Below, piece after piece: positions 19,401 through 64,000 of a stretch of 64,000 bases of DNA. Both the position numbers and the translations under genes were made by a program. Each line of letters starts with the position of its first letter. Position 1 is the first letter of the stretch. This DNA is from Cristatella mucedo (Eukaryota > Bryozoa > Phylactolaemata > Cristatellidae), in NCBI GenBank assembly GCA_009760855.2, contig WPIO01000048.1, forward strand, positions 2,880,001 through 2,944,000. Reading direction: 5' to 3'. The notes beneath the pieces were generated by a model that saw only the letters and a list, made by a program, of their open reading frames with translations, was not told the DNA's origin and made no database searches.

Positions 19401-22400
19401 ACAATTCTCTCAACTCTCTTGCTACATGGAGTGGTGACATCTGCACATAGACTGCAGCAAACATTCTCAAATTGAGTGATGATAAAACCAACTTACTAAT
19501 TACAGGCAAACCAAGTTTCACTCAGAAATTGAAAGGTAAACACTCAAAATCAGCTGTACCAGCATATCTCCTGTAGCATCTGCACGAAATCTAGGTTTCC
19601 TGTTCCAAAGTGACCTCTAACTAGACGACCAAATCAGCTTCACAGTCAAGTGTGCCTACTTTCAGCTGTGTAACATCGCAAAATTCAGGCTTGCTTAGAC
19701 AGGGATACTACATTCAAATGGATCCGTACATTTTTGACATCCAGTCTTGATTTCTGTAACTCACTGCTTGCTGGTATACCGGCCTGCACAATAAGGGGCT
19801 TACAGTTGGTCCAAAACACCAGCTAGGTGTCTGCCGTAAGATTCGCAGTTGCCACATCACACCACTGCCGACCGGCACTGGCTCCAAATCAAGCAGCGTA
19901 TCGACTTTAAGGTTCTGCTCCACAGTCAAATCTGCCTATTTTCAGCTTCATAACATTACCAAAATTCGGGCTTGTTTAGATAAGGATACCACATACTAGT
20001 TATGGGCAAACCTAGTGTTATTCAGAAATTGGAAAGGCTGACTTTCAAAATTGGCTCTGCCAGCATATCTCCAGTTGCATCAGCTCGAAATCTAGGTGTC
20101 ATATTCCAAAGCGACCTCTCGTTAGACGACCACATCAGCTCCACAGTCAAATCTGCCTATTTTCAGCTTCATAACATTGCTAAAATTAGGGCTTGTTTAG
20201 ATAAGGATACCACGTCCAAGTTGGTCCATGCATTCGTGACATCTCGTCTCGACTTCTGCAACTCACTGCTTACTGGCCTACCAGCATGTGCGATCAGGCG
20301 ATTGCAGCTGGTGCAAAACTCTGCAGCTAGGCTTGTCTGCCGTGAGCGTCGCAGTTGCCACATTACTCCACTTCTCGCCGACCTGCACTGGTTACCAGTC
20401 AAGCAACGGATTGACTTCAAGGTTTTGTCGCTCACTTTTAGGTCTCTTCATTCTATGGCTCCAGCCTATCTTTCAGAGATACTACCCCATCAGGCAAAGC
20501 ATCGTACCACTCGCTTTTCGGAATCCAACAGTCTAGAAATACCTCGTACAAACCTTAAATCCTTTTGGAGACCGTGCATTTAGCTCGTATGCTCCCACAG
20601 CCTGGAACTCCCTCCCGACCTGCATCAGAACATCCCCTGACCTGACCACATTTAAAAGAAACTTAAAAACATACCTATTTAGGACAGCATTTAGTGGGTC
20701 CTTGTGATTCGTCCTCGATGTGCTTATGCGTGCTGACACTGTTCATGCTGCCACTAACCACATTTGCATGCTGACCCAGTGCATGTAACCCCTAACCATG
20801 TTATTCATTTTGTTTGTTTTTCAAGCATGATTTTACTTACTATTCTATTGCGTATCACTTTGCAGCAAATGTAAAGCGCCTAGAAAGAGATTAAGTTCTC
20901 TGAGGGCGCTTTATCAAGTGCAATATTATTATTATTATTATTATTATGCAAGTTGGTCCATGCATTCGTGACATCCCATCTCGACTTCTGCAACTCACTG
21001 CTTACTGGCCTACCAGCATGTGCGATCAGGCGATTGCAGCTGGTGCAAAACTCGGCAGCTAGGCTTGTCTGTCGTGAGCATCGCAGTTGCCACATTACTC
21101 CGCTTCTCGCCGACCTGCACTGGCTACCAGTCAAGCAACGGATTGACTTCAAGGTTTTGTCGCTCACTTTTAGGTCCCTTCATTCTATGTCTCCAGCCTA
21201 TCTGTCAGATATACTACCCCATCAGGCCAAGCATCGTACCACCCGCTTTTCGGAATCCAACAGTCTACAAATACCTCGTACAAACCTTAAATCCTTTGGA
21301 GACCGTGCATTTAGCTCGTATGCTCCCACAGCCTGGAACTCCCTCCCGACCTGCATCAGAACATCCCCTGACCTGACCACATTTAAAAGAAACTTAAAAA
21401 CATACCTATTTAGGACAGCATTTAGTGGGTCCCTGTGATTCGTCCTTCACGTGCTTATGCGTGCTGACACTGTGCATGCTGCCACTAACCACTTTTGTAT
21501 GCTGACCCTGTGCATGTCAACCCTAACCATATTATTCACTTTATTTGTTTTTCAAGCATGATTTTACTTACCATTCAATTGCATTTCACTTTGCAGCAAA
21601 TGTAAAGTGCCTAGAAAGAGATTAAGTTCTCTGAGGGGGCTTTATCAAGTGCATTATTATTATTATTATTATTATTGTCACGCCCATTTAGGTCCCTTAA
21701 TTTTTTTGGCTCCAGACTACATATAAACGAGAACTACTCCTCGACCAGGTTAGGCATCGCACCATTTGCTTTTCTGACTCATTTCGTTTAGCTCTACCTC
21801 GTATGAACCTCAATTCCTTTGGAAGCCGTGCGCTTAGTTCATATGCTCCCAAAGCGTGGAACTCATTCCCGACTGATGTCACGGCATCACCTGACTGGAC
21901 GACATTTAAAAAGAAGCTAAAATGCACCCATTCCTCACAGCGTTTAGTAGGTCCATGCGATTTGACTTTTGTGTGCTGACACTGCATGCTACAACTAGCC
22001 ATAGGAACATGTTGACAATGTACGTGATACCTCTAACCATATTATGCTAGTTAACATTGGGCAAGTTACCTCTAACAATTCGACCATGCTTCCTTTACAG
22101 CACACGTAAAAAGTTCTCTTAGGGTGGTATACACATGTATTATTATCATTATTATTATTATTAATTTTATTACTCCAGAACTGTATTTTGGTTCACAGAT
22201 GTCATAGTGACATTGCAATTGCCGACCTCATGAAGTGGTCTTTGCTGCTATTGGCTGAACAGATTGGCCAATATATGGGAAGTGCTTCCAGCTGTCACCA
22301 CTGAACCGCAGCTGCTTTTCTGGCTGTTGGGTCGAAGTAAATGTCTCCGGCTGCTCGAAGGCACCGCGTGCGTGCACTTCTTCTTTTACTAGCCACGTCG

Positions 22401-25400
22401 GAGGAGCAGGAGCAGATCGTCCGGGAGCGGCTGCTCACTGTCAGGACGCGAGGCTGTGAGCAAGGAGGGCCTACGGAAAGATGCTGCCGTGACGATAAGC
22501 TTTGGTCGCCACGACGGCCCGGTAATAGAGGACGTCTTCGAAAGCTATCCTAGGAACGCGTACGAGACTCCTTCCACGACCGCATGGACAAAGCCGACCG
22601 GCAGCTCCTCAGCCGAGGCAGGAGGCCGGAAGAAGGGTAAAGCGAAGGCGGCAAAAGTCGGTGGCAGGAAGAAGGCATCCTCCAAGGCGCGAGGCACTGG
22701 GGGTGCTGCTGAGGTGGGCAGCGGTGAGCAGGCAAGCGGGCCGTCGGGCAAGCAGCGGTCGTCGAAGCAGAAAAGCACGGCAGCAGTCGCTGCGGATGCT
22801 GCTGAAGCAACAGCTCAGGGCAGCAGGAGGACCCGTTCGGGGCGGCGGCGAGGACAGAAGAAGGCCGGCACCCGACCCGATGGCGACGTCAGGGGTGCCG
22901 GCTCACCTGTCAACCAGGCCCGCGAGTCGCCATCGTCGACGGCTCTCATTTCAGGTAACCGACTCATGTGTCATGGCCCAGGCGTAAGATGCTCGCTTTT
23001 TCTGTCGACAAAGGGTCGGCAGAAAAAGCGACCACCCCCTTTTTTTTACCCAGGTCGTCGGTTCGAGTCGTGCAGCAGGCTGCAATACTTTGTCGTCCGC
23101 TTCAAGCCGAGTTGTAGTCTCTTCTGCCGCTATGCAAATAAGTCTGTTTGATCAGCCCAACTGAGCTCCTTGTATTTAGCAGCTAGATACAAGGAGCTCT
23201 TCTTTATCCACCGGCTGTATGTATGTATGTATGTATGTATGTAGCCCCCAATTATGGCTCCACTACTAGAGTTGCCATATAGTGAAAGATGCTCGATCTC
23301 GGTAGTATGGTCTGCTTGTTAGCTGCAACTCATTTGCAGGTATGAAAAATTTGCCCTGTGAACGTGGAAACCTGCTGCAGGTATATCTATTGCTGCAAGC
23401 GTGGCAATTGAAAAAGGATAGATTGAGGTGGCCCTGGCCTGCATGTCTCTGGTCGACCCATACTGTAGCAGCTGATTGATCTTTCCTTGGTGAAATTAAA
23501 GCTTTCAGAAGCTCCTTGCAGACCAGCGGATTTCAACAGGCTACGGTGTCACTGGTGTACAGCCGAGATGTGAGAGTCCTGCCAGTTATTTTTCAGACTT
23601 TATAGCATGAGGGGCTTATATTTCATAATGACAATTTTCTGCCACTCTGATAGGGCTTTATGTCCAATCACTTCTTTTGTGTCTGATCTCTGTAGCAAAT
23701 CGAAGGGACTGGGCCAAAAGCAATGCGGGTCCCTGAATGATGCGGTTGCCTGTAGCTCACATCTCCTGCATCAAGATCACATGGTCCTCAAAACAAAATG
23801 GGCATCACTGCAGTAATGCAAATAAAAAATCATGAAACAGAACCGTATATAATCTGAAAAGAGAGAAGACACCACATGGACCTGCCAATAATTAAGTCAT
23901 CCAATAAGTAAAGCTAAAAATGCTGGGCGCTGTCTACAAAGCTGGAAGATCCGGTTAGTTGTTGTTTATTTTAGTCTGCTATTAATGGCTTCACTATTAG
24001 AGTTGCCTTGCAGTCTCAACTTTAAAGTCGAAAGATGATTGATCTCGGTTGAATGGTCTGTCAGTGAACTGCAGAGCATATGCAGGTACGACGAATTTGA
24101 AAATACTTAACCAGCAAAGGCTTTGATATAGGGCTGCTTGACTATTTGTCATCGATTCTTCTGCCTGTTGTTATTTGGGCTAGTGCTCTAGCGATTGTGC
24201 TATCGAGATCATCACTCCACTGCACTCAACATAGGGCTCACAGAATTGGCTTTGCATTTCCATGTATGTGTTCGGGAAGAACCTCGATTACTAACTGCCT
24301 CGTGCAAATCTCGGTGCCTTTAGTTCCTATGCTCCCAAAGCCTGGAGCTCACTCCTGACTTGCGGTACATCTCCCGACTTGTCCACATTTAAAAAGAAAT
24401 TAAAAATGCATCTATTTATCAGAGCATTTAGTAAGTCCCTGTGACTCGTCCTTTATGTACTTATGCATGCTGACACTGTGCATGCTGCCACTAACTATAC
24501 TTGCACGCTGACCCTGTGAACGTCATCCCTAACCATGTTATTCTTAATAATAATAATAATAATAATAATTCACTTGATAAAGCACCCTCAGAGAACTCAA
24601 TCTCTCTCTAAGCGCTTTACATTTGTTGTAAAGTGAAATGCAATTGGATGGTAAGTAAAATCATGCTTGAAAAACAAACGAAATGAATAATATGGTTAGG
24701 GGTGACATGCACAGGGTCAGCATGCAAATGTGGTTAGTGGCAGCATGCACAGTGTCAGCACGCATAAGCACATCAAGGATGAATCACAGGGACCCACTAA
24801 ATGCTGTCCTAAATAGGTGTGTTTTTAGGTTCCTTTTAAATGTGGTCAGGTCAGGGGATGTTCTGACGCAGGTCGGGAGGGAGTTCCAGGCTTTGGGAGC
24901 ATATGAACTAAATGCACGGTCTCCAAAGGATTTAAGGTTTGTACGAGGTATTTCTAGACTGTTGGATTCCGAAAAGCAGGTGGTACGATGCTTGGCCTGA
25001 TGGGGTAGTATATCTGAGAGATAGTCTGGAGCCATAGAATGAAGGGACCTAAAAGTGAGCGACAAAACCTTGAAGTCAATCCGTTGCTTGACTGGTAGCC
25101 AGTGCAGGTCGGCGAGAAGCGGAGTAATGTGGCAACTGCGATGCTCACGGCAGACAAGTCTAGCTGCCGAATTTTGTACCAGCTGCAATCGCCTGATCGC
25201 ACATGCTGGTAGGCCAGTAAGCAGTGAGTTGCAGAAGTCGAGACGGGATGTCCCGAATGCATGGACCAACTTGGACGTGGTATCTTTATCTAAACAAGCC
25301 CGAATTTTAGCAATGTTATGAAGCTGAAAATAGGCGGATTTGACTGTGGAGCTGATATGGTCGTCTAACGAGAGGTCGCTTTGGAATACGACACCTACAT

Positions 25401-28400
25401 TTCGAGCTGATTCAACTGGAGATGTGCTGGCAGAGCCAATTTTGAGAGTCAGCCTGTCCAATCTCTGGATCACACTGGGTTTGCCCATAACTAGTAAGTT
25501 AGTTTTATCATCCTAAGTTTTAGAAAATTTGCTGCCATCCATGTGCAGATGTCATCAATGCATGCAGCAAGTGAGTTTAGAGAATATGAGGTGCTCGAAG
25601 GCTGGGAGGGATCAAAGCAAAGGTACAACTGAGTGTCACCCGCATAGAAGTGAAAGCCTAGATTGTGCTTGGCAATCACATCAGCAAGAGGGAGAGTATA
25701 AACCGTGAACAGAACCGGACCTAGCAAGGAGCCCTGAGGTACTCCATATTTCAGAGGTACTTCAGATGATCTTTGTCCATTCACGTCAACACTCTGGAGT
25801 CTCCCACTGAGATAGGACCTGAACCACTGCAGAGCAGTGCCAGTGATGCCCAGGCGAGATGGGAGGCGCTCTAGAAGAACTTTGTGATCGATGGTATCAA
25901 AAGCTGCCGAAAGATCAAGCAAAACAAGCAGAGACACTCTACCCATGTCTGCATTCCTAAGTAGGTCGTTGTATACCCGAAGCAATGCTGACTCTGTGGA
26001 GTGATTAGCTCTAAAGCCAGACTGGAACTTACTAGCAAGGTGTGAGGTTTCGATATATGAGTTCAGCTGGTCTGCCACGACCCGTTCGAGTGTCTTTGAT
26101 AGGAATGGTAGAAGGGAAACTGGGTGGTAGTTGCTCAAGTTCTCTTGGTCTAGTGTAGCTTTCTTGAGAAGTGGCCTGACTACAGCTTTTTTGAAAGGTG
26201 CTGGGACCTGAGGCTAATGACATATTAATGATGTTGGTTATGCATGGCAGCAGCAGATCAATGCAACGTAGGAGCACGACAGTGGGAATAGGGTCCAGTG
26301 GACTTGTTGTCTTCTTTGATTGAGATACGAGCTTTAGGACTACATCACTAGTGACCTGTTTAAATGCAGACATTGAGGCGCAGCCAGGAACCGAGGAACA
26401 GCATTCTAGTGGGGAGATTTTCATCGCAGGGATGGATTCCCTGATCTTGTCTATCTTCTGCACAAAGAATTGAGAGAAGCGATCGGCTAGATCATCATTA
26501 GGATCATCAGGTAAGGAGCTAATCTGGGAACGGTTGAGGAGATGGTTTATTGTCGACATCAGCATTTTTGGATTGTGCATCTGTGATTCAACAATGTTTT
26601 TATAAAAGCTAGACTTGGCCTTTGCTAGGATCGATTGGTACGACCTACAGTAGTCTTCATATGCCTGTCGATGGACAGTTAGTCCGGATCTTTTGTATGC
26701 TTTTTCAAGCTTTCGTTTAGTAGACTTGGCTAGTTTAATGTCTGTGGTAAACCTTAGGCCGTCTGGGCGGGGGCGCACAGTGCGCTTTGTCAGAGGGGCA
26801 AACTCGTCTAGCGTGTCAGCTAGTGTCGTGTTGAAGCTATCTACTAATGATAACAGATCGGAGGGAGGACTGAGCAGCAGAGGTGAAGCAGATATTCTTG
26901 CACGGACAGCATCGAAGTCAAGGGTCTTGAGGTTTCGCGATTCACAGGTTATTTTAGAGAAGGAGGTGGGCACACACTGTAGATTGAATGAGATGTGCAT
27001 GTGGTCAGATAAGCAGGATTTGGTAATAATTGGTGATGACAAAGTGCAGTTGTATGAGAAGATCTGGTCGAGTGTGTGACCCTTGATGTGGGTAGGGCCA
27101 TGCACATGAGCCACAAGAGACAATGAGTCAGTCAATGCACGAAATTCGGTGCTGAAAGCGTCAGATAAGTTATCAAAGTGAACGTTGAAATCACCCATTA
27201 CGAGGAAGGATCGATTTCTTGCACACAGAATCGAAATGAGATCGGAGAAATCTGAGATAAAGGAGGATTTGGTACCTGGTGGGCGATATACTACTGCCAC
27301 TATCGGTAGCTTGTTTTCGGGTGAGACCAAGACAATTGATTCCAAAGACTGCTTCGAGGGTACCGCAAATGGCTTGAAGTTGAATTTCGAGCGCACGACA
27401 ATAGCAACTCCACCTCCAGTTTTGATTGATCTAGGGGTGTGAAAGAACGAGAAACCAGATGGAGTTGTGTCTTTAATTGTCGGACAGTTTATTGATTTCA
27501 GCCAAGTTTCAGTTAGGGCGAGCAGGTCGCTACCATTTTCAGAAGTAAGGTCGCTTATTACTAGAGGTTTATTGCACATTGAGCGAGGATTCCAAAGGCA
27601 AGCGTTAAGTCTGGCCGATGGGGTTACAACAGGCTTGATGACCACTAAGTGGAATTTTAGAATTTTAGTTGAGGAATTTACAGTGACGCATGTGGGGGAG
27701 CATGCTGAGCGGTTCGAGACAATGCTAGGAATACCGAACGAGCGGGTACTCAGCTTGCAGGTTCCGCCCAACGAGCAGCGTCTGAGCTGGCGGTTCCGGC
27801 CACCGGGGTGCTTTTCTTTTGTTAATGCATAGTTCATGAATCTTAGCAACAACATTAATATCTAGGAATGCATTTGATATGCGATGACAAAGCGATAACA
27901 GCTGCTGACGATCATAACTAACAAGCAGGTTACTAGCCGCCGGCAAAGCTAAGGCAGCCGCCGGCGTGGGAGACCCAGCAGCCCGAAGCGATAAGCATTT
28001 AGATGTCCATAGGCACGTAATTTCTTACGTGCTACGGTCAAATAACAATCAGAATAACTTTAAACAGGTCTTAGCTGTATCGTTCTTGCTGCTTATTGAG
28101 CATGTAATGCAATGTATCTTCGTCTGTAACTCCACAAAGCCATAAAGACTATGTGGGTGTTACACTGGAGAGTTTTTTATAGCTCACTCACAGCCTAAGT
28201 GGCTTTCGGTACGCATTCGGTAGCCAACAGACTTTGTCTCACGCAACAAAGAGAAAGTGGGAAGCATAGCAGAGTCTGGAGAGCAGTTGAGATAGTGAGC
28301 AGTATGGAAGTAGCAGCTCAGGACTGCTAAAAAGGAGGAGTCATTGTCGGCAGCAGGAGAGTAGTTGTCGGTGCGTAAGAGATGTGGAAGTGAGTTCCAC

Positions 28401-31400
28401 AGTCTAGGACCTGCAGAGCTAAATCTTCTGTCATCAACGGTCTTTAAGCAGAGGAATGGAACAGCCAATTTATTGTCCACACAGGACCTGAAAGCGCGAA
28501 GAGGCTGAAACTGGTGCAGCAGTTCAGCTAGGTATGGAGGAGCCAAGCCGTGGCGGGCCTTGTGGGTAAGGGTAAGAACTTTGCTCTGTATCCGTTGCTC
28601 AACCGGCATCTATCCTAGCTCTTTTAGCAAAGGAGACACGTGGTCAAACCTCTGCGACTTGAAGACTAGCCTTGCAGCTATATTCAAAGTCAGCTGCAGT
28701 GGCCTAGTTGCTTTCTTTGGTAGCCCAGCCAAAAGGGAATTACAATAATCAAGCCGAGACAGAACTTTGGAGCTAGTAAAATTGTTTGCAAGCCACTGTG
28801 GAAGACAGCTCCTAATCTTGGATAGGGATCAGACGTGATGGCTAGCTGTAGAAGCAGTCTTCTGACTGACGCTTTTAAAATTGAGGCAGCTGTCGGAAAC
28901 GACACCTAAATTTCGAGCACGTGATGATGGTCTCACAACAGCATCACCTATTAGAAGAGCAAAGCCATTTGATCAAGCCACATGCTTAGGGTGTCCTATG
29001 AGCAGCAGTTCGGTTTTATCGTCATTTAGTTTCAAGAAGTTTTCCGACATCCAGGCTCGAATGTTGGCAAGGCAGGCATTCAGTTTATCAGTGGCTGCAG
29101 CAGATACCGACGATTTGAATGACAAATACAGCTGAGTATCGTCCACATACAAGTGATATCCTATTCCATGAGCCTTAATCACTTTTCTCAGATGTTGAGT
29201 ATAAATGGAGAACAGCATGGGACCGAGTGGAGACCCTTGAGGGACTCCACAGGTGACCCGTCTCGTGTGTAAGACCTGACCCCCACACGACACAGATTGA
29301 ACACGATCAGACAAGTACGATTTAACCACCCCAGTGCCGCATCTAGCAGAACGATCGTTGTTCTCAATCGTTCAAGCAGAATATCGTGATCAATGGTGTC
29401 GAAGGCAGCTGGCAGATCTAGCAGAGCTAGGGCAGTGATATTTCTGTCATCGTTGACATGTAGAATGTCATTGTTAACACGGAGGAGCATGCTGCCACTA
29501 ACCATTCGATCGTGCTTCCTTTGCAGCCAAAGGAAAACTGACTAGAAGAGATTGAGTTGTCTGAACATGTACAAAGGAGCAAAAACTCGCATGTTTCTCA
29601 CGATAATGGTTTCATCCATTTTGATGTGCTTCCTTTTCAGCATGTGCAAAGAAGTGGACAGAAAAAGACTTTTTTTTAGCTCTCCAAAGGTGCTATGCAA
29701 ATTACTTATTATTATTATTGCAATTGGGCACCAAACGGCAACAATTACAGTGACTGTGGTCAACGAGCAGAGACAGTATGATCTGTTTGACGTAGCAACA
29801 AGTAATAGTATGCTATAGCTCCCAAAAGGAGGTCAGAAGGCTGTCTAGTGCAACGATATTCTATAAGGAGCACTGAATTGCAAGTAAAGGAGAAATGCAG
29901 GCATATCAGGCACAAGCACATGTGCACACGGTCTAATATTATTGCCACTTTGTGTGCTTTAATAATTGACGTGCCTATCTACCGACAATTAGGCGATGAA
30001 ATTTGAAAAAATGCTACTTTCAATAAGACCAGCCAACAGCAGCTCGTCGGAGTGCTTCTTGTGGTAGATACTTTTGTATTCTTTATTATTTGTGGTTTAA
30101 GGTTAGCTGATTTGACTGCCTCATTTGTATAGCAGCAGAAGAGCAATGACGGCTATCACCACCTCTTGCAGTGGGCAATATAGGATCGCCCACTTCAGTG
30201 GGCAATTCTTTATTGCCCACTGCAAGACGTTGTGCTAGCCGTTACAAACCTAGGTCGTGAAGAGCAAGCATCTTACTTTCTGGGCTTTGGACCCAGGGGT
30301 TTGGATTCTAGTGGGTGTGTGAGATATTGCTGCCTGACAAGTAGCCCATATTTTCACCAGTTTTACCTGCTTCACCTCTCTCTTTCTTTCCCCTTTCTGG
30401 CTACTTCTTTTCCTTCTCATTACACCCGTGTTTTTTATCTTTTTTTATTTTTATATTCTTCTCGCTATTCATTCTTTTCAATCTTACTCACCAAAGGGGA
30501 ATAACAGCAGCTTTGAAAGCTCGGTTGCCGTGGTGACCACGACTGGTCGTGCAAAGCGACTCCGAGGAAGCGGCTGGCTGCCGGCTGCTGGCTATCGTTC
30601 GCACATACGCATCTCGTGACCCGAGATTTTTCTGACACGAGCGATTATTCGGCTACTCTTTGCAGGCGTCGGCTGGCAGCTGGCAACTAAGATGAATATC
30701 ATTGAAGTCGACCCAGAGCATTACCAGTCTCCAGTGCACGTCACTAGCATCCCTGATGCTGGCGCCGTCAGCGCGCGCTCTTTCAGCTTTCACGAGATGT
30801 CGCCGCTGCAAAAGCGCGAGGAGCTGAAGCGTCTGCTTTTGGCCATGCGCGACTCGACGTCAAATTCGGCCCCTGGTGTGGCGGTGACAGCAAATGCGTC
30901 TAGTTTCATTCCGGAAACGATGAGGGCGATACACGAGTTTGCCCAGACCGTCCCAGACCTGGACGAGCAGCACGAATGGGATGCTCTGTTCGGGTTGCAC
31001 GCGAAAGATGCACTGCTCGCTGTACCGAAGTTGGCTGCGGTGGCGCTAGAGGAGCATCGTGCGAGTCATCGTGCGGATGCTGCTGATACGCTTGATCGCC
31101 GACACGGCGGCTTTGCTGCTCCCGATGCAGATGCACTGCAGCCGCGTGAGACGAGGACGCTAGCAGCGCCAGCGCAGCAGCCCGATGCATCGTCACCAGC
31201 TGCAGCGCTCTGGGTAATGCAAGAGGAGAGTGACTTGGCGCAGGCCGAAGGCCCGGATAGCAGTGGCGGCGCCATCGTTGAGCTGCGCCAGCCGCCGGTG
31301 CCGGCTCATCAACCGGATGCACTCTCTGGTGGCTCTGATGGGCTGCGACGCGGTGATGACGGCAGCCTTGTGCGGGATCGACTTCATTCGATGATCATCG

Positions 31401-40100: not shown

Positions 40101-42702
40101 GCTTTAATTGGCTTGCATTTTTTTGATAGCAGCTCAGGCTAGCAGCCACATAGCCGTCTGGTTACAAAGTCTATTGCTTAATGCCCACTGGGTATGCTGC
40201 TCCTCGCGAAACCCTGAGCGACTGACAGACTCGTATTTCAGTACCGAGAGCAGGGTGCATTCCTTCTGGTGATGGGATTTTGTTAGTGTGACATGCAGCT
40301 AATGACTGGTGACACTAGGCCCTAGACTTAGTCTCGAGAATTTTGGAGCATTGCACGCAGGCATAATCGAAAAATGCTGGATTGGGCGAGCCCGAAGATG
40401 ATGAAGCAAGCTGTTAGTCTGCGATAGCAGAGGTTCTGTCGAGATGCAAATGAGATCACTATTTTTTTCTGGCTGTCTGAAACATGAAAGAACAAGAGGG
40501 GAGGAGTGCAGGGGAGCATGTACTCCATGGCATGCAGTCAGTTTCATTCAGAAGACTGCTTCTACAGCTTGCCAGCACGTCCGATCCCTATCTAAGATTA
40601 GGAGCTGTCTTCCGAGGTGGCTTGCAAACAATTTAACTAGCTCCTTAGTTCTGCCTCGGCTTGATTATTGTAATTCACTTTTGGCCGGGCTTTTGAAAAA
40701 AGCAGCTAGGCCACTGCAGATGGCTATGAATATGGCTGCAAGGCTAGTTTGCAAATCCCAGAGGTTTGACCACGTGTCTCCTTTGCTAAAAGAGCAAGGA
40801 TGACTGTCGGTTGAGCAACAGGCACAGAGCAAATTTCTTAACGCTGACCCACAAGGCCAGCCACGGCTTGGCTCCTCCATACCTAGCTGAACTACTGCAC
40901 CAGTTTCAGTCTCCTCGTGCTCTCAGTTCCTGTAAGGATAATAAATTAGCTGTTCCATTCCTTTGCTTAAGGACCGTTGGCGACAGAAGCTTTTGCTCTG
41001 CAGGTCCTAGACTGTGGAACTAGCTTTCACGGTTCTTATGCAACATCAATTACTATCCTGCTGCCGACTATGGCTCATCCTTTCCAGCGGTCCTGAACTG
41101 CTACTTCCATGCTGCTCATTACCTCAACTGCTCTCCTGACTCTGCTATGCTTTCCACTTTCTCTTTGCTGCCGAATGTGTACCGAAAGCCGCTTAGGCTG
41201 TGAGTGCACTATAGAAAACTCTCCCGTGAAACACCCACATAGTCTTTATGACTTTGTGCATTTACAGACGGAGATACACAGCATTGCATTAATATGGCCT
41301 CTGTCATCACCATTCCCAGTGCATCGTTGAAACTACACTTATTGGTGCTCCAAGTCTTTCACGGTGGTCGGATTTTACCAGCGATCAGTTGAATGAATAC
41401 CTATAGTCTAGCTTGACGCCTCCCCCTGTATGTTTGAACTGCATCCAATCTGAGCTAACAAATGCTGTCAGGGTAAAGAGTACATATAGGGACCGTTTGT
41501 TGATGACTAGCACCGGCTGCGTAACATCAAGTCCGAGCAAAAAATTACTAGCTGATTTAACAGCCTCATTTTGTAAAGCGACAGAGGAGCCTCGTAGGCT
41601 ATCACCACAGCTTGCAGTGGCAATAAAGGATCGCCCACGGCACGATTCGAACCAACGACCTCGGAACAGAGATCCGAGGTCGTGAAGAGCAACAGCCTTA
41701 CCTAGTGTGCCATCACGGCTCGCCGAACATTAAACACGGCTCTTCGCAGTGGATCCTCTCTTTGCAATGAATTCTCTCTCCGAGTTGTCGACCACAGTGA
41801 ACGCAATGATGGCACCCGATTGCAATTAAAATCATCCAGTTCAGGCATTGCCCCGATATTCGGTCTGGGCACGTATGTGGTCATGTGCAGACAACGCTTA
41901 AGCCCCGTGTTTAGAGCACGAGATTCGATATCAAAATATTGATATATCAAAATATTTGATATCGGAGTCTCGATATCGAAAGGCTTTGCTGACCACAGGA
42001 CCGTAAAACCAGAGGCTGTGCTATCGTCACTCACCGGACGTGGCAACAATTTTTTAATCTCTGTGCCACGGCCTTCAGTTGTGTTACATTTTCAAATTAC
42101 TCTTAAAAGACGATATTGGCAACCACAGCTCTTAAAAAGCTTATCGCATGCCATTACACTTACTCGTTTGAGGTGTTACTGATATTCGATTGTGGTTAGA
42201 ATCCTTCTTTATTCTCAATATGTATCAATGTTAGCATAACTATATCTTCCCTTCTAATATTGTAGGATGATTCGCCCAAGTAGTGCTTGTAGATCTTCAT
42301 AAAACTCCACTTAAGTTTGTCATCAATCATAGTAAGCTGTTCACTGCTGTGCAGCTCATACTGCCTTTAGAGGCCGAATGGAGAATGAAAGTAGAATTCC
42401 ATAATCGAATGCTGTGCCACACCCCACACTTGACTTCTGTGCGCTCTCTCACTCACTCCTGCACATTAGTGCTTGCAGCACTGCTAACCCTTGGATGGCC
42501 TAAGATATGGCGCTGGCCTACGCCAGAACTGACGTGGCTTTGCACCTTTTGCATGCTCACCCGGCTGCTCGCCACGAGGCTCTGCTGCAGCATGCCGGGG
42601 CCTCATGCCACGTGGTATTGCAGAGATCAGTCCTCGAGGCTCGACGCAGCCGCATTGCTCGCCCATCCGTTCATCATCACGCACACTTCCGTGAAAAAGT
42701 AG
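513..42702 (+). CDS. Ankyrin-repeat MAP3K19/YSK4-like protein kinase, 20 exons, 5' end outside window
   Basis: Join of 513-704, 2481-2641, 4215-4327, 5976-6115, 10109-10438, 10565-10674, 10821-11011, 13127-13312, 13587-13811, 13923-14035, 16291-17355, 22393-22954, 30666-32074, 35821-35946, 36059-36241, 36491-36642, 36755-36934, 39244-39486, 39842-39958 and 42624-42702. Every junction is AG/GT and every phase matches, giving about 1,958 residues before the TAG stop. Residues 1-250 are about six ankyrin repeats; 289-312 hold polyQ; 313-1640 are low-complexity Ser/Ala/Gly-rich and basic; about 1686-1955 are a complete Ser/Thr kinase. All catalytic motifs are intact (glycine loop, AVK lysine, HRD, DFG, APE). 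The kinase domain resembles human MAP3K19 throughout, including a distinctive [15 protein letters not shown] stretch. MAP3K19-type kinases phosphorylate MAP2Ks in the cytoplasm. Attaching the ankyrin exons to this gene is inference from strand, order and phase; weak links are exons 9 (13587) and the 17355/22393 junction. The initiator codon and promoter are not in the window. Confidence 0.8.
705..2480 (+). other. Intron 1; mostly unrecognised, LINE-B fragment near its 3' half
   Basis: Between two phase-0 ankyrin exons. I recognise a LINE-B 3' fragment at about 1640-2000 and nothing else. The short ORFs here lack any domain signature. Confidence 0.6.
1640..2000 (+). mobile_element. LINE-B fragment
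   Basis: Plus-strand fragment: 'gctaaactgctgtatcag', 'cctagactgtggaactcac', 'ccactctcctgctgccaact', 'gtgcactgaaagccgctta'. Decayed, in intron 1. Confidence 0.7.
2481..2641 (+). CDS. Kinase gene exon 2: ankyrin repeat with long loop
   Basis: Acceptor gatgccttgcag, donor GC|gtaagc, ends in phase 2. It encodes [20 protein letters not shown], then an inserted loop ([18 protein letters not shown]), then [10 protein letters not shown]. The loop interrupts the usual 33-residue repeat, as in the insert-bearing repeats of tankyrase-like proteins. The final Ala codon is split and completed by exon 3. Confidence 0.85.
2642..4214 (+). other. Intron 2; nothing recognised
   Basis: No domain-bearing ORF, RNA gene or repeat family recognised in this stretch. 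Confidence 0.5.
4215..4327 (+). CDS. Kinase gene exon 3: ankyrin repeat
   Basis: Acceptor ggttgtag, donor CTAG|gtaagg, phase 2 in and phase 1 out. Joined to exon 2 it gives [20 protein letters not shown], a textbook ADVN....G.TPLH ankyrin core that spans the splice site, which is strong support for this junction. Confidence 0.88.
4610..5240. mobile_element. Degraded LINE-A fragments
   Basis: About 4620-4690 is a plus-strand fragment matching the LINE-A segment 'tctgcctactttcagct'. About 4735-4925 is a minus-strand LINE-A 3' end (tail, then tandem AAT). About 4985-5240 is a plus-strand degraded 3' coding end. All are decayed and in opposite orientations. Confidence 0.6.
5311..5455 (+). mobile_element. 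SINE-A copy (tRNA-derived)
   Basis: A tRNA-like head has an A-box-like part (ccagtggttaagttgctcg) and a B-box-like gtcgtgggctcgagccc. A body follows, then a tail agagattaggttctc...ggcgctatacaaatgaatt running into (AT)n. The same arrangement recurs at least nine more times in this window. Confidence 0.8.
5540..5705 (-). mobile_element. SINE-B copy (tRNA-derived)
   Basis: On the minus strand it has a tRNA-like head with a B-box-like segment (gtggattcaaatcctgcag), then a 'ggcaat...agcctttaaggctct' body ending near 'taaataaggctgttcag'. It shares this layout with copies at 7608, 30105, 41545 and 52745. Confidence 0.75.
5815..5958 (+). repeat. Four-copy minisatellite just upstream of exon 4
   Basis: About four tandem copies of a 34-42 bp unit built around 'atcatcatttctaac' and 'gtgagccagtgcaga', diverged in the third and fourth copies. 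The array ends 17 bases before the exon 4 acceptor, so the last copy provides part of the polypyrimidine/branch region. Confidence 0.75.
5976..6115 (+). CDS. Kinase gene exon 4: ankyrin repeats
   Basis: Acceptor cgttgtag, donor TCG|gtgagt, phase 1 in and phase 0 out. It encodes [20 protein letters not shown] and then [20 protein letters not shown], one full repeat and the start of the next. The next repeat is completed exactly by exon 5. Confidence 0.9.
7048..7163 (-). mobile_element. SINE-A copy
   Basis: Reverse-oriented copy with tail 'cctaatctctattca' and B-box-like 'gggctcgagccc'. An (AT)n stretch adjoins its 3' end at about 7026-7048. Confidence 0.75.
7608..7785 (-). mobile_element. SINE-B copy
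   Basis: Well-preserved minus-strand copy. The head reads gccgtgatggcgcactagg, then a B-box-like gtttcgaatcctgtg, then the agcctttaaggctcttctg body. The tRNA-like head is clear but it lacks a full cloverleaf, so I do not call a tRNA gene. Confidence 0.78.
9002..9150 (-). mobile_element. SINE-A copy
   Basis: Minus-strand copy: tail next to 'ataattcatttttatagc', B-box-like 'gggctcgagcccac', and an A-box-like part 'aggtggttaatgtgctcgc' at its left end. Confidence 0.75.
9245..10015. mobile_element. LINE-A fragments
   Basis: 9250-9420 is a minus-strand LINE-A 3' tail. 9620-10015 is a plus-strand, degraded RT C-terminal/3' coding fragment related to the cleaner copies at 20000-21670. It ends about 90 bases before exon 5. 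Confidence 0.65.
10109..10438 (+). CDS. Kinase gene exon 5: last ankyrin repeat and polyglutamine tract
   Basis: Acceptor acttttgccag, phase 0. It reads [20 protein letters not shown], which completes the TPLHVS repeat from exon 4, then one more repeat ([15 protein letters not shown]) and a basic helix ([11 protein letters not shown]). An uninterrupted (CAG)24 at 10361-10432 encodes 24 glutamines. The donor is best placed at CATCGT|gtacga, which keeps phase 0 into exon 6; reading on without splicing meets a stop at 10484-10486. Confidence 0.88.
10361..10432 (+). repeat. Pure (CAG)24 trinucleotide repeat in coding sequence
   Basis: Twenty-four consecutive CAG codons with no CAA interruption, in frame in exon 5 and only two codons from the predicted splice donor. 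Pure CAG tracts of this length are usually length-variable. Confidence 0.95.
10565..10674 (+). CDS. Kinase gene exon 6: low complexity
   Basis: Acceptor gtggagccag, donor GCGA|gtacgt, phase 0 in and phase 2 out. It encodes [20 protein letters not shown] and an Ala/Ser-rich end. No domain recognised. Supported by open frame and phase match only. Confidence 0.6.
10821..11011 (+). CDS. Kinase gene exon 7: Ser-rich linker
   Basis: Acceptor cttactaccag, donor CAGAG|gtgaga, phase 2 in and phase 1 out. It encodes [20 protein letters not shown], then a Ser/Gly run and an Arg-rich end. No domain recognised; the phase joins cleanly to exon 8. Confidence 0.62.
11012..13126 (+). other. Intron 7; nothing recognised
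   Basis: About 2.1 kb with only short, domain-free ORFs on both strands. No known repeat family seen. Confidence 0.5.
13127..13312 (+). CDS. Kinase gene exon 8
   Basis: Acceptor gccgttgcag, donor AAAG|gtcaag, phase 1 in and out. It encodes [20 protein letters not shown] and a Pro/His-rich part ending [16 protein letters not shown]. No known domain. Open across 61 codons with matched phases. Confidence 0.68.
13587..13811 (+). CDS. Kinase gene exon 9 (boundaries uncertain)
   Basis: An open frame encodes [20 protein letters not shown] and later a DDDDAS acidic run. The acceptor (ggatttgag) has a poor pyrimidine tract and the donor (TCAA|gtacgc) is one of several choices. I picked them because they keep phase between exons 8 and 10. 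Confidence 0.48.
13923..14035 (+). CDS. Kinase gene exon 10
   Basis: Acceptor actcgtccttgcag is strong; donor GAATCT|gtaagc is strong. Phase 1 in, phase 0 out. It encodes [20 protein letters not shown] and [11 protein letters not shown]. No domain recognised. Confidence 0.62.
14050..15480 (-). mobile_element. Degraded LINE-A copy
   Basis: The minus-strand 3' tail begins next to AAT repeats at about 14043-14075 and decayed coding sequence extends to about 15480. At about 15170-15400 a reading frame keeps an RT-like [13 protein letters not shown] core, a decayed form of the GVPQGS motif. Many stops and indels; a pseudogene-grade insertion inside intron 10. Confidence 0.7.
15950..16170 (+). repeat. 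Minisatellite plus poly-C run
   Basis: About five to six imperfect copies of a roughly 22-27 bp unit (gggctaaatatgcctatta) lie at 16005-16135, followed by 23 consecutive C at 16148-16170. The array sits 120 bases before exon 11. Confidence 0.85.
16291..17355 (+). CDS. Kinase gene exon 11: large Ser/Ala/Gly-rich exon
   Basis: Strong acceptor ttttcctgccag, donor AAAACG|gtacgc, phase 0 at both ends, 355 residues. Composition is dominated by Ser, Ala, Gly, Thr with scattered acidic residues, typical of a disordered linker. A patch near 17115-17170 ([20 protein letters not shown]) looks more structured. A second possible donor, CCAA|gtgagt at about 16443, would truncate the exon. GC-rich compared with the introns. 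Confidence 0.8.
18500..18625 (+). mobile_element. Decayed SINE-B copy
   Basis: B-box-like 'ggctttgaaccagtc' followed by the 'actgc...aaccactaaggctcgactgctgctatgcaaat' layout of SINE-B. Diverged. Confidence 0.55.
19320..19920 (+). mobile_element. Old LINE-A fragment
   Basis: A decayed RT C-terminal region with repeated resemblance to the cleaner copy just downstream (gcaaaccaagtttcactc, ttcagctgtgtaacatcgc). The reading frame is broken. Confidence 0.65.
19921..20945 (+). mobile_element. LINE-A 5'-truncated copy
   Basis: 5'-truncated element carrying the last part of ORF2. The frame 20002-20583 begins [20 protein letters not shown] and is the region after the RT palm. The frame breaks near 20565, where the other copies read on. 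It ends with the 3' UTR and an ATT run at 20925-20945. Confidence 0.85.
20002..20583 (+). pseudogene. LINE-A ORF2 C-terminal remnant, frameshifted
   Basis: 193 codons matching the C-terminal part of the ORF2 at 24784-25488 (minus). It loses frame at about 20565: the sibling copies continue into [17 protein letters not shown], but this one ends in FWRPCI. There is no RT catalytic core, so it cannot work. Confidence 0.85.
20946..21676 (+). mobile_element. LINE-A 5'-truncated copy set head-to-tail
   Basis: A second 5'-truncated copy starts inside the ATT tail of the previous one, at the segment equivalent to 20220. Its frame 20953-21438 (161 codons) is intact to the natural stop after FRTAFSGSL. 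It ends in ATT repeats at about 21655-21676. Confidence 0.85.
21677..22165 (+). mobile_element. Older LINE-A fragment
   Basis: A more diverged 3' fragment (gctcccaaagcgtggaactc and the 3' UTR) that ends in ATT repeats at about 22138-22165. With the two copies upstream this makes three LINE-A 3' ends in a row on one strand. Confidence 0.7.
22393..22954 (+). CDS. Kinase gene exon 12: basic, Arg/Ser- and Lys-rich
   Basis: Strong acceptor cttcttttactag, donor TCAG|gtaacc, phase 0 in and phase 1 out, 187 codons. It opens with [13 protein letters not shown], has a short more ordered part ([20 protein letters not shown]) and then Lys/Ala/Gly repeats such as [19 protein letters not shown]. The last part resembles histone-H1-tail or nuclear-localisation composition, not a named domain. 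The join to exon 11 continues a Ser/Lys-rich context. Confidence 0.75.
22970..23160 (+). mobile_element. SINE-B copy beside a splice donor
   Basis: The head region 'catggcccaggcgtaagatgc', a B-box-like 'gtcggttcgagtcgtgc', and a 3' body 'cttctgccgctatgcaaat' ending near 'gtttgatcagcc'. It begins about 16 bases after the exon 12 donor. Confidence 0.65.
23161..24265 (+). other. Part of intron 12; mostly unrecognised
   Basis: Holds (ATGT)n at about 23217-23243. Two related stretches, near 23260-23345 and 23985-24085, share phrases such as 'cactactagagttgcc' and 'gatctcggt', suggesting an old duplicated repeat. Nothing else seen. Confidence 0.45.
24270..24545 (+). mobile_element. LINE-A 3' fragment, tail-to-tail with the main copy
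   Basis: Plus-strand LINE-A 3' end (tgctcccaaagcctggagct and the 3' UTR up to ctaaccatgttattc). It stops where the AAT tail of the opposite-strand element begins, so the two copies meet tail to tail. Confidence 0.75.
24784..25488 (-). pseudogene. LINE-A ORF2, C-terminal third
   Basis: 234 codons starting at [20 protein letters not shown], the part after the RT palm and thumb, ending FRTAFSGSL. It is interrupted from the RT core frame just upstream by a stop/frameshift near 25489-25505. The same segment is present in the copies at 20002, 20953 and 1-230. Confidence 0.8.
25491..26138 (-). pseudogene. LINE-A reverse transcriptase core with mutated catalytic box
   Basis: 215 codons. Visible motifs in order: [72 protein letters not shown] and [12 protein letters not shown]. 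The last should be FYADDTQLY; the first of the two metal-binding aspartates is Gly here (GGT for GAT), so the enzyme should be inactive. Confidence 0.85.
26032..27855 (-). pseudogene. LINE-A endonuclease and linker ORF
   Basis: 607 codons. About residues 80-290 form an exonuclease-endonuclease-phosphatase domain: [19 protein letters not shown] with the catalytic Glu, MGDFN, and a closing SDHMHISF. A long linker follows to a conserved DPIPT.LL..CID segment. Near residue 560 the frame shifts away from the RT frame. The endonuclease itself looks intact. Confidence 0.85.
28090..29500 (-). mobile_element. LINE-B, 5'-truncated
   Basis: A different RT lineage on the minus strand. 28973-29329 encodes [34 protein letters not shown] and [11 protein letters not shown] with both catalytic aspartates kept. 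28184-28609 encodes its C-terminus ([19 protein letters not shown]). The frames between are broken. The 3' end near 28090-28160 carries 'cacccacatagtc' and 'acagacggagatac' (minus strand), shared with the other LINE-B copies. Confidence 0.8.
28973..29329 (-). pseudogene. LINE-B reverse transcriptase fragment
   Basis: 118 codons covering the RT fingers/palm to just past the catalytic YVDD and the [15 protein letters not shown] motif. The catalytic pair is intact, but the endonuclease and N-terminal RT are missing or out of frame, so it is a remnant. Confidence 0.82.
29510..30100 (+). other. Intron 12 segment; LINE-A tail fragment, otherwise unrecognised
   Basis: 29480-29580 has a decayed LINE-A 3' end on the plus strand (gactagaagagattgagttg). 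The rest is AT-rich with no feature I recognise. Confidence 0.45.
30105..30290 (-). mobile_element. SINE-B copy with internal duplication
   Basis: Minus-strand SINE-B with the 'agccgtcattgctcttctg' body. The 'gggcaat...gatcgcccac' part is present twice in inverted/direct form near 30175-30225, an internal rearrangement. Confidence 0.65.
30666..32074 (+). CDS. Kinase gene exon 13: large linker exon
   Basis: Acceptor ctctttgcag, donor AACCGA|gtaggt, phase 1 in and phase 0 out, about 470 codons. The split Gly codon from exon 12 is restored. The first part looks more ordered ([39 protein letters not shown], a likely amphipathic helix). The rest is Ala/Ser/Asp-rich with an [10 protein letters not shown]-type run at about 31570-31625. 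No named domain. It directly precedes the kinase-domain exons. Confidence 0.83.
32075..35820 (+). other. Intron 13, with a diverged internal duplication
   Basis: No coding signal. 32650-33000 and 33830-34130 are recognisably related. An (ACTAGT)-like run sits at about 34860-34880. Nothing recognised from 34140 to 35800 apart from the T-rich tract leading to the exon 14 acceptor. Confidence 0.55.
32650..34130 (+). repeat. Diverged direct duplication within intron 13
   Basis: Copy 1 (about 32650-33000) and copy 2 (about 33830-34130) share, in order: 'gactcagacatgctcc/gactgaggcatgctgc', 'aaaagtttaaaaa/aaaagcttaaaaa', 'gccgctatctttgc/gctgctttctttgcc' and 'gatgccttcttcgtgtg/gatgacttcttcctgtg'. 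Same strand, offset about 1.1-1.2 kb, well diverged. Confidence 0.7.
35821..35946 (+). CDS. Kinase gene exon 14
   Basis: Very strong acceptor (tttctttttttttctag), donor CGC|gtacgt, phase 0 at both ends, 42 codons: [20 protein letters not shown] then [17 protein letters not shown]. No domain; predicted helical end. Confidence 0.82.
36059..36241 (+). CDS. Kinase gene exon 15: basic linker and start of kinase domain
   Basis: Acceptor tattttctcaag, donor ACG|gtgagt, phase 0. An Arg/Ser-rich stretch ([20 protein letters not shown]) leads into [17 protein letters not shown], the first strand and the glycine-rich loop. The loop finishes in exon 16 as VYCG. Confidence 0.95.
36491..36642 (+). CDS. 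Kinase gene exon 16: N-lobe with AVK lysine and helix C
   Basis: Acceptor ggttgcag, donor GTCGG|gtatgg, phase 0 in, 2 out. [19 protein letters not shown] gives the ATP-anchoring Lys; [15 protein letters not shown] supplies the helix-C Glu that pairs with it. This stretch is almost the same as in human MAP3K19. Confidence 0.97.
36755..36934 (+). CDS. Kinase gene exon 17: hinge to catalytic loop start
   Basis: Acceptor ctctttaag, donor CACAG|gtgaat. It encodes [20 protein letters not shown] (hinge), [20 protein letters not shown] and [12 protein letters not shown], which leads to the HRD motif in exon 18. The frame was chosen by homology; another frame in the same stretch is also open. Confidence 0.97.
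36935..39243 (+). other. Intron 17
   Basis: Has (GT)n at 37142-37173, a small LINE-A fragment at about 37285-37400, and a repeat-like stretch (37440-37810) resembling parts of 61080-61330. A 14-base homopolymer-like G run lies near 38311-38320. No coding signal. Confidence 0.5.
39244..39486 (+). CDS. Kinase gene exon 18: catalytic core and activation segment
   Basis: Acceptor tttctttgtaag, donor CCGTG|gtgagt. The exon completes [12 protein letters not shown] (HRD Asp, Lys, Asn), then [12 protein letters not shown] (DFG), [15 protein letters not shown] (APE) and [20 protein letters not shown] (helix F). All catalytic residues are present, so an active enzyme is expected. Confidence 0.98.
39842..39958 (+). 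CDS. Kinase gene exon 19: C-lobe
   Basis: Acceptor tatttttcag, donor CACG|gtatgt. It restores Trp across the junction and encodes [20 protein letters not shown] and [19 protein letters not shown], the helix G-H region of STE-group kinases. Confidence 0.95.
40560..41290 (+). mobile_element. LINE-B 3' copy, degraded
   Basis: Plus strand. The RT C-terminal region: [56 protein letters not shown]. Stops and frameshifts split it (for example near 40801). The 3' end holds 'aacacccacatagtc' and 'acagacggagatac'. Confidence 0.78.
41545..41725 (-). mobile_element. SINE-B copy
   Basis: Well-preserved minus-strand copy: head 'agccgtgatggcacactag', B-box-like 'ggttcgaatcgtgcc', body 'agcctacgaggctcctctg'. 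Confidence 0.78.
42624..42702 (+). CDS. Kinase gene exon 20 (last): end of kinase domain
   Basis: Acceptor gtggtattgcag. The first base completes Arg from exon 19, giving [21 protein letters not shown] and stop TAG at 42700-42702. RDQ..R..A..LL.HPF is the standard end of a MAP3K domain, so the protein ends right after the kinase domain. Confidence 0.94.
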
Positions 42703-59368: not shown

Positions 59369-59759
59369 CTGTTGACAAGAGATGAGGTAGTGGGGTAGAA
59401 GGCGTTTTGCTTCAGCCAACGAGACGATGCGAGTAGCAGAGCCAAGCAGCAGACAAGCGATCGTAGTGCAAAGGTCGGTGACGCTGTCGGTAGGTAGAGC
59501 ATACATAGCAGCTAGAGGCAGAGGAACATGCAGCCACTCTAGTGCTCAATTATCACGATCGTCTGACTAGGTGCAATAGCTTGAGACACTTCTAACCCAG
59601 AGGCAGTGGGCCAGAAATAATGAAGAATTTATGGGAAGAATGTCGTTGTGCTCAAGGGCACAGGCAGACATTTATCACATGTACACAATCCACAAGTGCT
59701 GAGTCCAAACATACATCCAAGTCAGCACTACAACTAGCAATCCTAGCATTGATCTAGCA
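59369..59759 (-). other. ENTPD intron segment
   Basis: A long open frame runs upstream from the ACR3 exon (to 59502), but it is out of family context and lies before a good acceptor, so I treat it as intron. Nothing else seen. Confidence 0.5.
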
Positions 59760-59946
59760 CGGTGGTTCTCAAACTTCCTAATGCCGCGACCCTGTAATAC
59801 AACTCCTCACTGTGTGGCGATCCCCAACCATAAAATTATTGTGTGAAAAATGTAGAAATGCGTGTTTTTCGATGGTCTTAGGCAACCCACATGAGAGGGT
59901 CGTTCGACCCCCAAAGGGGTCGCGACCCACAGGTTGAGAACCACTG
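59760..59946. mobile_element. SPIN/URR1-like hAT MITE
   Basis: 187 bases with inverted ends: left cggtggttctcaaacttcc, right ggttgagaaccactg. Inside are 'cctaatgccgcgaccctg', 'ccccaaccataaaattatt', 'cgatggtcttaggcaaccc', 'ggtcgttcgacccccaaagg' and 'ggtcgcgacccacagg'. From memory this order matches the non-autonomous SPIN (Space Invaders)/URR1 hAT elements almost throughout. It codes for no protein and would depend on a hAT transposase in trans. It abuts a LINE-B fragment on the right, so it probably inserted in it. The 8-base flanks (atctagca, tcttagac) are not identical. Confidence 0.85.
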
Positions 59947-60245
59947 TCTTAGACTGCGGAACTCGCTTCCACGATTCTTACGCAACGACAACTACTCTCC
60001 TGCTGCCGACTGTGGCTCATCCTTTCCAGCGGTCCTGAGCTGCTACTTTCATGCTACTCACTACCTCAACTGCTCTACTGACTCTGCTATGCTTTCCACT
60101 TTCTCTTTGTTGCATGAGATGAAGTATGTTGGCTACCGAATGCACACCGAAAGCTGTTTAGGCTGTGAGTTCGCTATACAAAACTCTCCTGCGTAACACC
60201 CACATAGTCTTTTTGGCAATGTGGAGTTACAGACGGAGATACAAC
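59947..60245 (+). mobile_element. LINE-B 3' fragment
   Basis: Plus-strand LINE-B: 'cttagactgcggaactcgc', 'caactactctcctgctgcc', 'acacccacatagtc', 'cagacggagatac'. The 5' side is cut off by the SPIN-like element. Confidence 0.78.
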
Positions 60246-63349: not shown

Positions 63350-64000
63350 TGTAATGTATGTATAAATGTATCTCCGTCTGTAACCCCAAAAAGCTACAAA
63401 GACTGTGTGGGTGTTAAGCAGGAGAGTTTTGCATGGCTCACTCACAGCCTAAGCGGCTTTCGGTACGCATTCGGTAGCCGACCGACTCTATCTCATGAAA
63501 CAAAGAGAAAGTGAGAGTCATAGCTGAGCCAGGAGAGCTGTTGAGGTAGTGAGCAGCATGGAAGTAGCAGCTCAAGACTGCTGGAGAGGATGTGCCATAG
63601 TCGGCAGCAGGAGATTAGTTGTCGTTGCATAAGTATTGTGGAAGTGAGTTCCACAGTCTAGGACCTGCAGAACAAAAGCTTCTGTCGCCAAAGGTCTTTA
63701 AGCAGAGGAATGGAATAGCTAATTTATTGTTCATACAGGACCTGAGGGCATGAGGAGGCTGAAACTGGTGCAGCAGTTCAGCTAGGTATGAAAGCCAAGC
63801 CGTGACGGGCCTTGTGGGTCACCATACGAACTTTGCTCAGTATCGGTTGATCAACCGGCAACCATCCAAGCTCTTTCAGCAAAGGAGACACACGGTCAAA
63901 CCTCTGGGATTTGTAAACTAGCTTTGCAGCCATATTCATCACCAGCTGCAGTAGCCTAGTGGCTTTTTTGGTAGCTCTGCCAAAAGGGAATGCCAATAAT
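63350..64000 (-). mobile_element. LINE-B copy, continues past right edge
   Basis: Minus strand. 3' end at about 63360-63425 ('aacacccacacagtc' on the minus strand), then a C-terminal coding region up to the edge ([28 protein letters not shown]). Frames are partly broken. Confidence 0.8.

Follow-up and report, generated by a model that had tools for sequence, protein, structure and literature searches.

The element and its junctions

The window, i.e. the whole 64,000-nucleotide stretch of DNA that was analysed, carries a short element that we describe as a putative SPIN-type non-autonomous hAT element (Table 1). It has the features of a MITE, being 187 bp long, repeated, bounded by paired terminal repeats and devoid of coding capacity, with stops in all six frames of the family consensus and a longest open stretch of about 55 codons. 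The consensus ends are CAGTGGTTCTCAACCT and AGGTTGAGAACCGCTG, and fit the start CAG(T/C)GGTTCTCAA that we take to be typical of SPIN-type terminal inverted repeats. The limits proposed in the first-pass annotation of this DNA (59760-59946) proved right: the consensus of 44 copies aligns with 59762-59946 (168/185 identities, E 1.95e-59), and the terminal inverted repeats pair with each other. Positions 59760-59761 fall outside the consensus alignment, 59761 being a mismatch (CGG for CAG). The single-stranded fold of the window copy was better than that of 200 out of 200 shuffled sequences (z -4.40), as its paired ends would lead one to expect, and an Rfam scan of the window returned nothing at the gathering threshold.

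Table 1. Positions in the window of the element, its parts and the adjoining sequence.
Feature	Position	Strand	Evidence
Putative SPIN-type non-autonomous hAT element (MITE), 187 bp	59760..59946	.	Genome copies, consensus alignment
Left end common to vertebrate sequence, consensus 1-81	59760..59840	+	Protein-level matches Myotis myotis P0122, Gekko kuhli P0125
Interior without vertebrate match, consensus 82-102	59841..59861	+	Residue counts, copy mismatch rates
Right end common to vertebrate sequence, consensus 103-187	59862..59946	-	Myotis myotis P0124, mouse primers
Left terminal inverted repeat	59760..59775	+	14/16 bases pair with right repeat (by eye)
Right terminal inverted repeat	59931..59946	-	Reverse complement identical to consensus 1-16 over 16 bases
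Left flanking 8-mer ATCTAGCA, TA-centred	59752..59759	+	3/8 equal to right 8-mer
Right flanking target 8-mer TCTTAGAC	59947..59954	+	TCCTAGAC in 4 other window copies of the uninterrupted repeat
Host repeat adjoining the element	59947..60243	+	LINE is the first-pass reading
Other copies of the host repeat	28113-28410, 63367-63664, 41004-41278, 1758-1981		Within the window

On its right side the element had been described as joined to a host LINE. It does adjoin a repeat of which four other copies lie in the window, while the name LINE is that of the first reading. In these four copies the repeat runs uninterrupted through TCCTAGAC, and TCTTAGAC stands at the corresponding place beside the element, so that, as far as can be judged from the letters, the right junction looks like that of a normal insertion into the host repeat. 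The left flank is not the repeat found on the right, and the flanking 8-mers ATCTAGCA and TCTTAGAC match at 3/8 positions only, without a clean duplication; the left partner was thus probably lost by later deletion or rearrangement. The element had also been thought to stand out against strongly diverged neighbouring repeats. This holds in weakened form only, since the window copy is itself about 10% from the family consensus (K2P 0.104) and the other host repeat copies share 79.6-86.9% identity with the one beside the element, so that any difference in age is modest. Elsewhere in the window, at 24784-27861 and 19984-21438, long frames were seen that resemble LINE reverse transcriptase by eye, with copies on both strands.

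Copies in the genome, their decay and their target sites

The element is dispersed through the genome. Both exact nine-base terminal cores, at the expected spacing of 145-175 bases, occur at 420 places in the 572-Mb assembly, part of which were inspected, against 1 place for the reversed-pattern control. A similarity search with the window copy, in which 40 of 2135 first-look candidates were scored, gave 41 matches; one is the window copy, to which the other matches are 79-90% identical. The further genomic copies on which the first reading depended thus exist. We estimate their total at about two to three thousand, on the reckoning that, with a divergence of 9-10%, all 18 core bases would be intact in some 15-18% of copies, and this figure is similar in size to the 2135 candidates. 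At one locus (contig C676, 2827749-2828803) a pair of oppositely oriented copies is separated by about 100 bp; their identities to the window copy are 86% and 79%.

The alignment of 44 copies comprised the window copy, 7 similarity loci, 20 fetched stretches, one of which holds two copies, and 15 pattern loci. The sample is non-random: 29 copies, the window copy among them, were chosen for their similarity to the window copy and the other 15 for their intact terminal cores. The leave-one-out mean K2P distance was 0.064 for the former and 0.109 for the latter. Mismatches among copies amounted to 7.3% in consensus 1-81, 7.1% in 82-102 and 7.5% in 103-187; the interior has decayed like the rest of the element. 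The tree of copies is star-like, with internal branches making up 5.0% of tree length and a single internal node supported above 0.9, its branch being 0.005 long. Together with the even divergence, this is the pattern expected after a single burst from one master.

Across the 44 copies, the two flanking 8-mers have on average 6.05 of 8 positions in common, compared with 3.41 when the flanks were paired at random (maximum 4.05 in 2000 shuffles). Agreement reached 7 or 8 positions in 25 copies (all 8 in 13) and was 3/8 or less in 9. The dinucleotide TA occupies positions 4-5 of the flank in 34/44 copies on the left and 35/44 on the right. The Buster group of hAT elements, of which SPIN is a member, has the target consensus nnnTAnnn, with which the TA-centred targets of the family agree. 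The definition of hAT elements includes eight-base duplications (PMC11008031), and target-site duplications of 8 bp are what the family displays in the 25 of 44 copies with 7-8/8 agreement.

Relation to vertebrate sequence and search for a transposase

Two open frames of the consensus were joined into one probe and compared with a set of 5.8 billion predicted proteins. Of 23 candidates, 15 had E <= 0.001, with listed identities of 55-96% over 21-49% of the joined probe; two are named Myotis myotis (P0122, 4.7e-9; P0124, 1.6e-8), one Gekko kuhli (P0125, 2.1e-8, from a record flagged UNVERIFIED_CONTAM), and 12 are without organism name. Residues were counted for 7 of these 15 matches. At the right end, 28/28 residues are identical in M. 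myotis P0124; at the left end the count is 25/27 for M. myotis P0122, 26/27 for the flagged G. kuhli record and 23-25/27 for four unnamed proteins. Six of the seven counted proteins continue past a breakpoint, beyond which 0/5 or 0/8 residues match. The shared ends therefore correspond to consensus 1-81 and 103-186, and the 21 bp between them are without match in those proteins. The likeness to vertebrate sequence thus extends well beyond the terminal 15 bases (25-26/27 and 28/28 residues). The first-pass statement that nearly all of the interior is matched goes a little too far, since the 81-bp and 84-bp ends are matched and the 21 central bases are not.

Mouse primers provide further matches to the right end. 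Two Ate1 primers, R1 (18/19) and R2 (18/20), both reverse primers of one targeting arm (PMC2767504), match the same strand of the element, and a Kcnq1ot1 primer matches at 19/20 (PMC6221546). The segment concerned, consensus 109-132, lies far from the terminus. Ate1 R1 and the Kcnq1ot1 primer were found through 16-base and 14-base family words, and no part of Ate1 R2 had served as a search word. A mouse Il1b primer matches at 17/20, but at 1 of 4 bases only outside the searched word, and for two mouse Bax primers the match is limited to the searched 13-mer and looks like chance. Element patterns were absent from collections of viral contigs (2 patterns), genome contigs (1 pattern), plasmids and phages; as these collections are non-vertebrate, their lack of matches says little.

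Subterminal sequence is thus common to bat, gecko (flagged record) and mouse. Bats, squamates and murids are known host groups of SPIN, and we take the matched bat and mouse sequences to be SPIN/URR1, the matches themselves carrying no SPIN label. The name SPIN as applied to this family is in this sense provisional, as the bat, gecko and mouse sequences on which it is based are unannotated.

The searches for a transposase pointed to other hAT families: none of the candidates scored with PF05699 (150 of 766), with PF18658 (150 of 327) or with a hAT protein as query (74 of 982) proved to be a SPIN transposase. Nor were SPIN ends seen in the hAT loci inspected, i.e. 20 weak PF05699 stretches of 1.5 kb, 3 PF18658 loci, 3 loci from the protein query and 30 loci of a young hAT, many of these stretches being short and possibly not reaching the element ends. 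In the scored sets, 56 places reach 76.8 bits or more with PF05699, at least 145 match PF18658, and most of the 75 matches to the query protein contain stops. The 20 weak PF05699 stretches are mostly Charlie/GTF2IRD2-like by eye, and two more hAT groups were noted in the same way (L097-L099 and L100-L102), one with a PF18658 zinc finger and GTF2IRD2-like, the other different.

The young hAT is ZBED4-like, encodes about 640 aa and was found at 30 loci outside the window (L009-L038). Twenty-seven of the 29 other loci align to locus L020 in one piece, at 98.2-99.8% identity over 2.0-2.2 kb; the alignments of L029 and L035 are fragmented, with 93.2% in one case. This element belongs to a different family from the MITE, and no SPIN ends were found at its 30 loci. 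Among named proteins, one of Hydra vulgaris comes closest, with 73% identity over 86% of the query, and the young hAT may possibly represent another horizontal transfer.

Proposed horizontal entry, its alternatives and known relatives

Clues on the host were obtained from a mitochondrial contig of 21,008 bp (C688) that encodes COX1 (table 5). Among the best 120 of 7999 COX1 matches, identity is 95% for the top match and 78-82% for those with a name, which belong to gastropods, cephalopods, chitons, nemerteans, annelids and a phoronid; molluscs among them reach about 81% at best. A 4.3-kb stretch of the contig has the order cox3, tRNA-Lys, -Ala, -Asn, atp6, cox1, tRNA-Ile, nad3 (protein genes by eye). 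Judged by these genes, the mitochondrial contig is lophotrochozoan and mollusc-like. Outside it, on C166, C83, C549 and C299, lie five further COX1-like stretches, of which three contain TAA or TAG stops; these are probably nuclear copies of mitochondrial DNA.

We hold with high confidence that the element is a SPIN-type MITE which entered horizontally, multiplied in one transposase-driven burst and subsequently decayed. That non-coding DNA should be nearly identical in different phyla speaks for horizontal transfer, and the proposal to this effect in the first-pass annotation is strengthened by the near-identity of both ends to bat and mouse sequence, the hundreds of copies and the non-coding nature of the DNA. 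A SPIN element would have entered the germline of a lophotrochozoan ancestor from another animal lineage, and internal deletion would have produced a form in which the 21-bp interior is framed by SPIN sequence, about 81 bp from the left end and 85 bp from the right. SPIN transposase would then have cut and pasted this form into TA-centred targets in one burst, and the copies, including the window copy at the host repeat, would later have decayed by point mutation. The transposase and the transfer itself, with its direction and date, are what we infer. Several points count against this reading, namely that no SPIN transposase turned up among the candidates scored, that the vertebrate matches are unlabelled and the gecko record is flagged for contamination, that the window copy is without a clean duplication, that 9/44 copies show flank agreement of 3/8 or less, and that the sample of copies is non-random.

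That the copies belong to admixed bat, reptile or rodent DNA is barely credible. All named matches are indeed from vertebrates (3 of the 15 carry an organism name), but contamination does not fit the spread of the places over many contigs, that of the window itself being 3.15 Mb long, nor the junction of the window copy with a repeat of which the window holds four other copies, nor an interior that is absent from the vertebrate proteins compared in copies that form one star-like set, nor a mitochondrial contig that reads as lophotrochozoan. Very improbable, too, is vertical inheritance of an ancient bilaterian hAT kept alike by constraint. hAT elements are ancient and widespread, as such descent would have it, but the ends are non-coding, and unconstrained copies have drifted about 7-11% from a consensus whose ends are still identical to bat sequence at 25/27 and 28/28 residues. 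The family might instead be a different Charlie-type hAT having only the terminal motif CAGTGGTTCTCAA in common with SPIN. This motif is common to several Charlie-type families, e.g. MER5 and MER20, and other Charlie-like hATs are present in the genome (by eye). Against such an assignment, which we regard as highly unlikely, the similarity reaches 81 and 84 bp inward and includes the segment matched by the mouse primers (consensus 109-132).

With horizontal entry of a SPIN-type MITE as the preferred reading, the closest comparison is with SPIN of tetrapods and URR1 of mouse, on the premise that the matched vertebrate sequences are SPIN/URR1. Both ends are near-identical at residue level to M. 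myotis sequence, the right end matches mouse primers, and the 8-bp duplications are TA-centred as in those elements. The present family differs in its lophotrochozoan host and in the 21-bp interior unmatched in the vertebrate proteins compared. SPIN has reportedly also been found in Lymnaea and in a planarian. In the literature surveyed (titles and abstract openings, with subscription journals mostly outside its coverage), no further SPIN-bearing lophotrochozoan was found.

A SPIN-like hAT with significant identity to SPIN and about 1,000 copies has been described in the snail Biomphalaria glabrata, in whose assembly no intact transposase was detected (PMC5440852). The likeness to our family, which includes a lophotrochozoan host, is taken from this description rather than from element sequences. 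In contrast, the host COX1 is about equally distant from gastropods, cephalopods and nemerteans among the best 120 of 7999 matches, which argues that the host is no close relative of B. glabrata. In the insect Rhodnius prolixus, SPIN_NA has been attributed to transfer from vertebrates, and the SPIN copies reported inside piRNA clusters number fewer than 5 (PMC11614815); it is likewise a non-autonomous SPIN of an invertebrate, as judged from its description and not from element sequences, and differs in its insect host. A SPIN-like hAT in a snail is thus already published, and the MITE described here adds a further case. We lean slightly towards the view that SPIN invaded a lophotrochozoan lineage apart from the reported snails, giving rise there to a MITE of its own, and that transfer into Lophotrochozoa took place more than once. 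With this MITE, the network of SPIN transfers gains a lophotrochozoan host that is not close to any named species in the 120 best COX1 matches, and the 21-bp interior may serve as a diagnostic for tracing one versus several SPIN sources in snails, in this lineage and in vertebrates.
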